A DNA stretch of 64,000 nucleotides from Halostella pelagica (GTDB lineage: Archaea > Halobacteriota > Halobacteria > Halobacteriales > Natronoarchaeaceae). The notes beneath the pieces were generated by a model. That model searched no databases, had not been told where the DNA came from, and saw only the letters and a list, made by a program, of their open reading frames with translations. The position numbers and the translations under genes are program-made. The DNA is taken from positions 1,302,001-1,366,000 of the forward strand of contig CP040678.1 in NCBI GenBank assembly GCA_005954745.1. Reading direction: 5' to 3'. Of the stretch, positions 57,353 through 60,018 are shown piece after piece; the first letter of the stretch is position 1; each line of letters begins with the position of its first letter.

Positions 57353-57421
57353 GCTGGATCCTACCGCGGAGTTCTATTTCAATGTCTGGACCGTCCGTCC
57401 CGGAGCGCCTTCGCCGTCCGC

Positions 57422-57695
57422 TCACACCTCGTTCTCGAACACCAGGCAGTACGAGTAGTCGAAGCCATAGCCGAATTTCCGTCGCTGTCCGGAAACTCGT
57501 CAGTGTCGAATTCGAGAGCGTCGCCACGACGAGCGTTCTCGGATGCGTCGAGGTACTCTCGGATGTACTCGGCGAGTTCCGGTTACGCGGAGATTCGAAC
57601 GCGAACGCAAATACGTTCCGAGCATCAGACAGTTCGCGGTTTCGGTACCATTTGCTGTCGTGCCACCGCAGGCGAAGAAAACCGGCGGAACCCAC
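57422..57695 (-). pseudogene. Frameshifted remnant of an unrecognised acidic protein
   Basis: Three consecutive coding-like segments on the minus strand need two frame changes. The first is WHDSKWYRNRELSDARNVF in one frame, next ELAEYIREYLDASENARRGD continuing to EFPDSDGN in another, then FGYGFDYSYCLVFENEV before TGA at 57422-57424. The segments look haloarchaeal (acidic, with D-F-P and F-E-N-E) and run in order, so a gene has decayed or the DNA has two indels. The 5' end is uncertain; no family is known. Confidence 0.5.
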
Positions 57696-57792
57696 ACTCT
57701 CTGCGGACAGAGAACGGGCGCAGCGGGACCCGCAAGGGGACGAGGGTATCGGGGCAAAGAATCATAGTAGTGGCCTCAGTAAGGCCTCGTTA

Positions 57793-58692
57793 ATGACCGA
57801 AAGTGACGAATACGAAAACCGACTCTTCGAGTGGTACGAGCAGTACTTCGGAGAACCAGACGCACGTATCGACGTGTATCTCGGGTTTGGACTGTTCTTC
57901 GCGGGGATCACGATGGGCGTACTCGCGCTCGCGCTCTTCTTCTGGGGGAGCCTCGCAGAACCGCGGACCGCCTCATACTTCGCCCGTATCGGCCCGGCGT
58001 ACACCCTGGGAATGCTTTCGTTACCGATGGCGATGATCGGCATCGTCACCCTGTTGCCGGTGGAGAAGAAGGCGCGCTACGCCGCTGCAGCGGGCGGAGT
58101 GATCAACCTCGCCGCAGTCATCTGGTTCAACGTCGCGTACCCCGACGACTGGAACGGGTACGGCGCGGACCTGACGATGCAGGTCGTCACTGTCTACGCG
58201 ACGGGCCTGACTGTCGTCGTCGGCGCGACCGGCGCAGCGCTTGTCGCCCACCAACTGGCGCAGGTGCGACCGAATCCCTCCGACATCGACCCCGTCGAAG
58301 CGGACGAACCGGACGAGAGCTACTCCGACGAGGAGATCGAACAGGACATAGAACAGGCGATGGAGGACGTCGACCTCTCGTGGGGCGGCGTCGAGAAGCA
58401 GGAGGGGCGGAAGATATCGTTCAACAGCGATACGGATATCGACGCGTCCGGATTCGACGTCGAGGCTGAATCGACGCGCTCGTCGGGCGTTGATTCGCAG
58501 GTTCAGGGCCTGAAACAGATGAAAGGCGGCGAGAAAAAGACCGCGACCTCGGAATCGACCGTCGACGACCAGACTGCGAAACTCACGGAACTCCGCGAGC
58601 AGAAACGCAAGGAGGAGGCGAGCGACGACGCCCGCAGTCCATCGGGGGACGGCTTCCTCAGTTGGCTTCGCAGTAAGCTCGGCGTTCGCTGA
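57793..58692 (+). CDS. Haloarchaeal membrane protein, DUF7139-like, upstream of salactin
   Basis: 299 residues from ATG 57793. Four membrane spans fill about 30-155 (VYLGFGLFFAGITMGVLALALFFW, PAYTLGMLSLPMAMIGIVTLL, AAAGGVINLAAVIWF, VVTVYATGLTVVVGATGAALVAH). The cytoplasmic tail (about 165-299) is acidic with a Glu/Asp coiled-like start (SYSDEEIEQDIEQAMEDVDLSWGG) and ends basic (SWLRSKLGVR). The salactin homologue begins 84 bases downstream on the same strand. A membrane anchor or partner for the filament is a plausible guess. Confidence 0.65.
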   Translation: MTESDEYENRLFEWYEQYFGEPDARIDVYLGFGLFFAGITMGVLALALFFWGSLAEPRTASYFARIGPAYTLGMLSLPMAMIGIVTLLPVEKKARYAAAAGGVINLAAVIWFNVAYPDDWNGYGADLTMQVVTVYATGLTVVVGATGAALVAHQLAQVRPNPSDIDPVEADEPDESYSDEEIEQDIEQAMEDVDLSWGGVEKQEGRKISFNSDTDIDASGFDVEAESTRSSGVDSQVQGLKQMKGGEKKTATSESTVDDQTAKLTELREQKRKEEASDDARSPSGDGFLSWLRSKLGVR

Positions 58693-58703: not shown

Positions 58704-58725
58704 AATTATTGCATTAGTAATAATT
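58704..58725. promoter_or_regulatory. Inverted repeat upstream of the salactin-like gene
   Basis: AATTATT-N8-AATAATT is a perfect 7-bp inverted repeat in a very AT-rich patch, lying 20 bases before a TATA-like TTTTATTATC at 58745-58754. It may be an operator or BRE-proximal site. Confidence 0.5.
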
Positions 58726-58744
58726 CTGAATACTTTTCACATAG

Positions 58745-58754
58745 TTTTATTATC
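58745..58754 (+). promoter_or_regulatory. TATA box of the salactin-like gene
   Basis: TTTTATTATC ends about 23 bases before ATG 58777, so the transcript is probably leaderless. Confidence 0.5.
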
Positions 58755-58776
58755 AGTGGGTGGACTTGTGTCACGC

Positions 58777-59805
58777 ATGGCCAAAGGCCTAGACGTCGGC
58801 ACGATGAACATCTTGTCGGCACAGCAGGATGGGAACGACACGGTGTTCGTGCAACAGCGTAACTCCTTCGTAGAGATCGATTACTCCGATATGGCGGAGC
58901 AGATGCTCTCTCGAAGCGAAGTCCTCCACATTAGAAAAGACGATAAAGTGTACGTCGTAGGCGACGACGCACTTAACTTTGCAAATATTTTCAATCGGGA
59001 GACACGTCGCCCGATGAAACACGGGATCCTCTCGAGCGACGAGCAGTCCGCGATCCCGATGATGAAACTCATCATCGAGCAGGTCGTCGGCGAACCGGAC
59101 CGCCCCAACGAGAAACTGTACTTCTCGACCCCCGCCGATCCGATGGACTCCGACCTCTCGACGCTGTATCACCAGAAGACGATCGAGTCCTTCCTCGACG
59201 ACATGGGATACGACGCCGAACCGATCAACGAGGGGATGTCCGTCATCTACTCCGAACTCGCTGATAACAACTTCACCGGCCTCGGTATCTCCTTCGGTGC
59301 GGGGATGACCAACGTCTGTCTCGCGTACTACGCCGTTCCGGTGATGAAGTTCTCCGTCGCACGCGGTGGCGACTGGGTCGACGAACAGGCCGCCCAGGCG
59401 ACGGGCACGCCCGTCGACAAGGTCACCTCCATCAAGGAGGACGGCTTCGAACTCGACTTCACGACGGACGTCGGCGGCGTCGAGGGAGCGCTCTCCATCT
59501 ACTACGAGAACCTCCTCGACTACGTCATCGAAAACATCGTCAAGGAAGTCGACGAGGAGGACGTCGAGGAAGGGCTCGACGTTCCCGTCGTCGTCACCGG
59601 TGGAACGTCTAGCCCGGACGGCTTCGAGGAACTGTTCCGCAGCCACCTCGAAGACGCGAACATCCCCTTCTCGATCAGCGGCGTGAGCCACGCCACCGAA
59701 CCGCTGTACAGCGTCGCCCGCGGTGGCCTGGTCGCCGCCCGCTCCGACGAGGAGAACCCCGACGCCGGCGAGGCGGAAGCAGAAGCGTCAGCCGCTGACG
59801 AGTAA
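58777..59805 (+). CDS. Salactin-type actin-family filament protein
   Basis: 342 residues from ATG 58777. Actin-fold motifs: phosphate 1 [10 protein letters not shown] (residues 4-13), phosphate 2 [17 protein letters not shown] (near 168-184), and adenosine motif [13 protein letters not shown] (near 275-287). Sequence and length resemble salactin of Halobacterium salinarum, a dynamically unstable, actin-like protein that nucleates at cell poles. The tail is acidic ([18 protein letters not shown]). It is separate from crenactin and MreB. Filament behaviour here is inferred. Confidence 0.8.
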
Positions 59806-59841: not shown

Positions 59842-60018
59842 TCACTCGGCGTTCTGGTCGTGGAATCGCCGGATAGCTTCCGACCAGGACTCCATCTCCA
59901 CCCGTTCGCTCTCGTGTTCGACGGAGACGCCGACGTATCCGCACCGCTCGCATACGTCCGCGTCCCGGTCCCCGAGCGTGTACGTCTCGAGCGTTGTCTC
60001 ACACCGTGGACAGTTCAT
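59842..60018 (-). CDS. Small zinc-ribbon protein (58 aa)
   Basis: 58 residues from ATG 60018 to TGA 59842-59844. Two Cys pairs, CPRC at residues 3-6 and CERC at 23-26, form one zinc site. The C-terminal half (VEMESWSEAIRRFHDQNAE) is a charged helix. Such short zinc ribbons in haloarchaea probably bind nucleic acid or protein. It converges with salactin. Confidence 0.7.
   Translation of the reverse strand: MNCPRCETTLETYTLGDRDADVCERCGYVGVSVEHESERVEMESWSEAIRRFHDQNAE

Follow-up and report, generated by a model that had tools for sequence, protein, structure and literature searches.

The locus described here raises two questions, namely which of the haloarchaeal actins it encodes and whether the membrane protein encoded directly upstream is dedicated to that actin. 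Volactin is, in the parts of the literature covered, one of two haloarchaeal actins for which in vivo filament data exist, and a role in the rod-to-disk change and tissue-like development of Haloferax has been published, as far as the available portions of that work describe it. Its filaments have been reported to cross the cytoplasm from one membrane region to another (PMC10869688), and the openly licensed literature searched, as far as its accessible portions go, names no partner and describes volactin alone. The features of interest in the window, that is, the whole stretch of 64,000 nucleotides of Halostella pelagica DNA that was analysed, are collected in Table 1.

Table 1. Features of the volactin locus, with window coordinates and the evidence for each.
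Feature	Coordinates	Strand	Evidence
DUF7139-B gene, four-helix membrane protein, 299 aa	57793..58692	+	PF23600 163.7 bits, cut-off 30; own clade; AlphaFold2 four helices
Membrane bundle, residues 25-158	57865..58266	+	pLDDT block means 85-98, residues 21-150
Tail motif 1, residues 178-208, DEEIxxDIEEAMxxVELSWGGVEK	58324..58416	+	conservation profile; partly homologous in non-haloarchaeal partners
Tail motif 2, residues 229-247, RSSGVDxQVxGLKxLKGGE	58477..58533	+	conservation profile; aligned counterpart in outside partners
Tail motif 3, residues 256-272, TVDDQTAxLxELREQ, predicted helix	58558..58608	+	conservation, AlphaFold2; aligned counterpart in outside partners
Tail motif 4, C-terminal helix, GLLxRLRxLLGR	58651..58689	+	conservation profile, AlphaFold2
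AT-rich inverted repeat AATTATT-N8-AATAATT	58704..58725		exact; species-specific, no conserved element
Conserved volA promoter element CACATAGWTTTATWA	58738..58752	+	39 nt before ATG
volA, volactin, 342 aa	58777..59805	+	PF25216 461.1 bits, positions 1-321 of 321
58-aa zinc-ribbon gene, convergent to volA	59842..60018	-	PF13453 26.2 bits, cut-off 22; genome distribution; gene order

Identity of the actin gene and its promoter region

The actin-family gene lies 84 nt downstream of the gene for a four-span membrane protein on the same strand (the stop codon of the latter ends at 58692 and the ATG of the former stands at 58777), and on this point coordinates and predicted helices bear out an earlier note on this DNA. 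The same note had called the actin a salactin homologue, which proved to be wrong at the family level. The 461.1 bits of the encoded protein for PF25216 compare with a Pfam cut-off of 35, with the whole model covered, and the protein is a full-length member of the family of volactin (VolA, HVO_2015) of Haloferax volcanii. PF25229, the family of salactin (VNG0153C) of Halobacterium salinarum, was not among the families matched by the window protein at E values up to 0.01, and since the two are separate Pfam families the salactin label was rejected. Salactin is a distant actin-family relative of volactin, a comparison of the two profiles aligning 86 C-terminal columns and no more, and of 15 salactin-type proteins collected, the two that were scanned scored 613 and 587 bits for PF25229. 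According to the available portion of its description, salactin possesses a long charged, acidic N-terminal tail, and its synteny is poor even within Halobacterium (PMC10746226), whereas the volactin locus is conserved. No such N-terminal tail is present in the window protein, which starts directly with the actin fold and carries its acidic stretch at the C-terminus. The genome harbours one volactin gene and no salactin gene, and a search of PDB sequences with volactin returned weak matches to FtsA, the best at E 0.0029.

The two families also occur independently of one another, as established in 243 haloarchaeal genomes where both were found in 41, volactin only in 78, salactin only in 39 and neither in 85 (odds ratio 1.15, P 0.68; three weak cross-hits of 83 were dropped from the salactin count). 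A second type of volactin-domain protein was observed at L214-L217 and at further places among the volactin matches, in which a full domain is followed by a long predicted coiled-coil in open frames of about 650-1360 aa; this type is common in family f7, is also found in f10, and occurs beside ordinary volactin, for whose filaments it is a possible candidate cross-linker or scaffold.

For the surroundings of volactin two sets of 80 loci were collected, and these 160 loci represent 151 distinct volactin genes. The inverted repeat that the earlier note had placed ahead of a TATA-like element is indeed there, being exact at 58704-58725 with the TATA-like element at 58738-58752, and it is the sole copy in the window within 2 mismatches. 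The repeat had been read as an operator controlling volA, a reading that could appeal to its arms, perfect over 7 bp, and to its place immediately ahead of the promoter element. It is exact, however, in just 1 of 150 distinct volactin upstream regions and absent from all four further genomes examined in the genus, and mononucleotide shuffles of the same 100 nt yielded a perfect repeat with arms of at least 7 and a spacer of up to 12 in 5% of cases, with 8.5% of shuffles of the AT-rich 60 nt holding a perfect repeat of that size. The repeat is thus not clearly above chance expectation, and the operator reading, lacking support from conservation, was rejected as improbable in the extreme. Across loci, a perfect repeat with arms of at least 7 was present within 100 nt in 19 of 142 against 8.5 expected from mononucleotide shuffles, its sequence and place varying among loci (18 of the 160 loci were left out, the start pattern not being found in 17 or the upstream stretch being short).

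The element CACATAGWTTTATWA, by comparison, was found with up to 1 mismatch in 62 of the 150 distinct upstream regions. Where it is well matched, it mostly precedes the ATG by 37-39 nt, in an analysis of position that excluded 12 of 160 loci for want of the start pattern or because of a short upstream stretch. In 115 of the 150 regions TTTAT is present 25-40 nt upstream of the ATG. We infer from this position that the element is placed as would be expected for the TATA/BRE element of a leaderless volA transcript. As volA has its own conserved promoter, the pair does not simply constitute one operon in haloarchaea.

The membrane protein and the zinc-ribbon gene

The upstream gene encodes a member of DUF7139 (PF23600) with predicted membrane helices at residues 25-52, 60-87, 92-115 and 128-158. 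When the protein was modelled alone by AlphaFold2 (mean pLDDT 77.6), these four helices were confident and the tail mostly loose, with short helices at 179-191, 234-245, 258-280 and 286-296 in a region of predominantly low confidence. The tail had earlier been described as acidic and coiled; residues 166-299 contain 35 D/E versus 17 K/R, so that the first attribute stands, and the second applies in part, to the short helices. Conserved positive residues in the loop between the second and third helices, together with the four-helix layout, suggest that both ends of the protein, tail included, are cytoplasmic. No other Pfam or NCBIfam family was detected in the protein at E 0.01, including any enzymatic, receiver or known sensor domain, and no PDB chain was matched by sequence at E up to 1. 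Fold searches with the protein gave generic helix bundles, among which no known relative stood out, though one may exist. Upstream of the gene, some 440 nt of the window (57353-57792) contain no recognised gene.

Three DUF7139 genes are present in this genome, and a tree of 118 DUF7139 domains places the paralogues that are unlinked to volactin in one clade of 28 with a support of 0.95. The volactin-linked type, for which we use the name DUF7139-B, forms a clade of its own and is defined by tail motifs 1-4. The window protein falls within it, its tail matching the tail profile at E 2.5e-58 in G000, where the window row is itself part of the profile (136 rows, after 2 of 148, L061 and L084, had been dropped and duplicates removed). 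The unlinked haloarchaeal paralogues share the membrane domain of DUF7139-B, and differ from it in clade and in tail, the WGG motif being absent from all 30 other DUF7139 frames examined. A few unlinked domains group with the linked type, namely L179, L180 and L182 from genus g7, L025 and L084, which are rearranged or frame-joined, and L141, which sits on a long branch. DUF7139 proteins with any type of tail occur in 228 of 243 haloarchaeal genomes (examples with other tails being L002, L004 and L165-L194), and among the unlinked tails one type ends in a CxxC zinc-ribbon-like segment and another in a different domain.

On the far side of volA a small gene is convergent to it, and its marginal score for PF13453 (Zn_ribbon_TFIIB) supports the zinc ribbon as a class and not a function; the four ribbon cysteines are invariant in 38 rows. 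At E <1e-15 the family (A6) was found in 115 of 119 volactin genomes, being missing in G050, G081, G202 and G204, and in 0 of 124 others, a threshold chosen after a gap from 1.3e-17 to 3.8e-8 had been seen, with weaker matches in 14 volactin-negative genomes. The gene is convergent and downstream of volactin in most loci and upstream of DUF7139-B in others. In all 12 of the volactin-positive g7 genomes it lies within about 0.8-1.4 kb of the DUF7139-B tail match, with volactin elsewhere; in G067 it stands beside volactin and DUF7139-B is elsewhere, and in G003 and G011 the zinc ribbon is the component that left. It was not found in the 20 loci read outside the haloarchaeal order. Judged by this distribution, the zinc-ribbon gene is a third, haloarchaeal component of the module.

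Conservation and co-occurrence of the pair

A DUF7139 gene is present on the same strand within 600 nt upstream of volactin at 131 of the 151 distinct loci (139 of 160 before removal of duplicates), the median gap between DUF7139-B and volactin in haloarchaeal loci being 97 nt; it is not so placed at 19, twelve of which belong to g7, and a contig edge cuts off the remaining locus. The other neighbours are much less conserved beyond a few families, the zinc ribbon excepted, and cluster-wide synteny was therefore rejected as the cause of the pairing; dph2, which in the window is the first gene that can be recognised on the upstream side, and the downstream methyltransferase each accompany volactin at 24 of the 80 loci from G genomes.

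The gene order of the window is the same in the Haloferax loci L072-L074 and L077-L080. With the CetZ gene of Haloferax loci included, the order there is CetZ, zinc ribbon, volactin, DUF7139. CetZ5 is HVO_2013 (PMC10927574), and this order implies that the last three genes are probably HVO_2014, HVO_2015 and HVO_2016, making HVO_2014 the probable zinc ribbon and HVO_2016 the probable DUF7139-B of H. volcanii. HVO_2014, HVO_2016 and DUF7139 were not found to be mentioned in the openly licensed literature. Three regions in which shape genes are suspected are listed in PMC10869688, one of them hvo_2013 to hvo_2020, with details given in its supplement, and part of this neighbourhood may thus already have been noticed. 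The CetZ tubulin gene adjoins the zinc-ribbon gene in Haloferax (L070, L072-L074, L077-L080, L132 and L139), rendering actin and tubulin genes neighbours there, and another CetZ gene is near the module in Halorubrum ezzemoulense (L082:2380-3843). As a general member of the module CetZ was rejected, since it is near volactin in 12 of 160 loci, confined to Haloferax-type loci and L082 apart from a weaker match at the edge of L060.

The pair also extends beyond haloarchaea. The search covered 294 genomes of the phylum, 241 of them outside the order (counted from kinship-sorted match rows), and full-length volactin was identified in 32 of the 241, in families f19, f21 and f22, which are probably methanogens and their relatives, an assignment based in part on where salactin has been reported to occur. 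These 32 genomes, and no other genome outside the order, carry a homologous partner, which is directly upstream of volactin in every one of them. Thresholds were E <1e-100 for volactin and E <1e-70 for the partner, and G344, four weak salactin-like matches and 11 partial partner matches (long frames in genomes lacking full-length volactin) were set aside; the partner profile (A8) has 18 rows, drawn from as many of the 32 genomes, so that the match of these 18 is given by construction. G344 holds volactin fragments with stops (G344:C75:129-701) that look like a decayed copy, and has no partner match. In all 20 outside loci read, the same-strand gene directly upstream encodes a membrane protein of 223-305 aa with a charged tail. 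The six partners tested passed the DUF7139 cut-off with 32-53 bits, and hhalign aligned the outside partner with DUF7139-B over 252 columns, tail included (99.1%, E 4.8e-19). The gap to volactin is at most 30 nt in 13 of the 20, and as the genes often nearly touch, the two probably form one operon outside haloarchaea. Conservation of the pair in other genera was the test on which the earlier note had staked its proposal of a functional link between actin and membrane protein; conservation was found across haloarchaeal families and in three families outside the order, and the proposal is further strengthened by complete co-occurrence.

Among 243 haloarchaeal genomes, volactin and the DUF7139-B tail were both present in 119 and both absent in 124, with no genome carrying one without the other, and both states occur within 10 genera. 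Presence of volactin was taken as a full-length match, with G014 (a fragment above the cut-off) and 19 matches below the cut-off set aside, and the profiles A2, A6 and A8 used in the searches were themselves derived from genes at volactin loci. Copy numbers of volactin and tail track each other in G161 and G240, while G010 has one volactin and two tails.

Genes that are adjacent in most genomes might be gained and lost together by hitchhiking, in the absence of any joint function, and an instance of such loss is seen in G014, where a single deletion removed both genes at once by fusing the beginning of DUF7139 with the last part of volactin, demonstrating that co-loss of neighbours also happens; a short open frame (L200:1366-1827) is the remnant of that deletion. 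The behaviour of unlinked pairs speaks against hitchhiking as the general cause. In all 12 volactin-positive g7 genomes both genes are kept at distances of 78 kb to 1.8 Mb or on different contigs, as they are in G067, again on different contigs, and the two g7 genomes without one gene (G162 and G218) are also without the other and are nested among the positives in a PurL tree, G162 being the sister of G052 at 91% in this single-gene tree with some partial sequences. These two genomes are most simply explained by joint loss of genes that were not linked. With adjacency maintained in all 32 outside genomes that have the pair and other window neighbours such as dph2 so much less faithful to volactin, we regard hitchhiking as very unlikely. 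A protein that is present only with volactin, even when the genes are far apart, is very probably its partner, and the view that DUF7139-B is an obligate partner of volactin, occurring exactly where volactin does among the genomes searched, appears well supported.

A candidate membrane anchor for volactin filaments

Several actins are known to work with dedicated partner proteins, as in the pairs ParM-ParR, MamK-MamJ, MreB-RodZ and crenactin-arcadin-2. The likeness of the present pair to these lies in an actin filament accompanied by a protein dedicated to it, which could dock onto the filament by a flexible tail or a C-terminal helix; unlike those partners, DUF7139-B has four membrane helices, and it matches no PDB sequence. 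DUF7139-B is perhaps an anchor that ties volactin filaments to the cell membrane. The earlier note had suggested a polar anchor; an anchor is plausible, a polar position being a conjecture of that note. From a place in the cytoplasmic membrane the tail of DUF7139-B would reach into the cytoplasm, where its short motifs would bind volactin subunits or filament ends, so that the membrane would be the site at which filaments are nucleated or tethered. The haloarchaeal module would also have acquired the zinc-ribbon protein, of 58 aa or more, which would most likely act as a soluble adaptor or regulator. That the dedicated partner anchors or nucleates volactin filaments at the membrane by means of its tail is the reading we favour as reasonably probable, its elements of direct binding and anchoring being inferred. 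An AlphaFold2 model of a read-through chain comprising partner, intergenic stretch and volactin (L047, 63 rows) gave the volactin half pLDDT values of mostly about 60 or lower, and with that half unfolded the model permits no conclusion on an interface.

Instead of holding the filament, DUF7139-B might serve in the membrane as a sensor or signalling protein, exerting control over volactin or being itself under volactin's control, with the zinc ribbon as the relay of the signal. Four helices and a long flexible tail with several short motifs would also suit a sensor or scaffold, volactin has been proposed to act in mechanosensing (PMC7617734, in the portion available), and obligate co-occurrence fits any dedicated partner. 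The domain searches described above, however, revealed nothing of a sensor, receiver or enzymatic kind, and strong conservation extends beyond the membrane part to the tail motifs, as is expected for direct docking; we consider such a role unlikely, albeit one to be taken seriously. Far less credible is a role as an enzyme or transporter that depends on volactin to handle its substrate. Such a role is brought to mind by the top rows of a Foldseek search, which are chains of leukotriene C4 synthase, a four-helix membrane enzyme, at E 0.088 and weaker, yet there was no fold match at E 0.001 or better, the values from VIA-align (Z about 8, rmsd near 6) are in the range of common helix bundles, and the strong conservation of the tail motifs as well as of the helices, with no obvious catalytic set, renders this role highly improbable. 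Anchoring or nucleation by DUF7139-B remains the favoured reading. A wider version of it can be put forward tentatively, as possible though short of an even chance: an ancient two-component membrane-actin system would predate the split of haloarchaea from the lineages of the three outside families, with the polytopic DUF7139-B anchor nucleating or capping the filament through its four tail motifs, and with the zinc-ribbon regulator having been added in haloarchaea.

DUF7139-B, being always present with volactin, represents a concrete candidate for holding or starting volactin filaments, with the zinc ribbon as a second, smaller candidate, and both can be tested in a genetically tractable archaeon. 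The presence of the pair outside haloarchaea indicates that it is old, and it therefore bears on how archaeal actin filaments were tied to membranes. Should the reading as an ancient two-component system be true, the pair would constitute a filament and anchor unrelated to any known actin partner.
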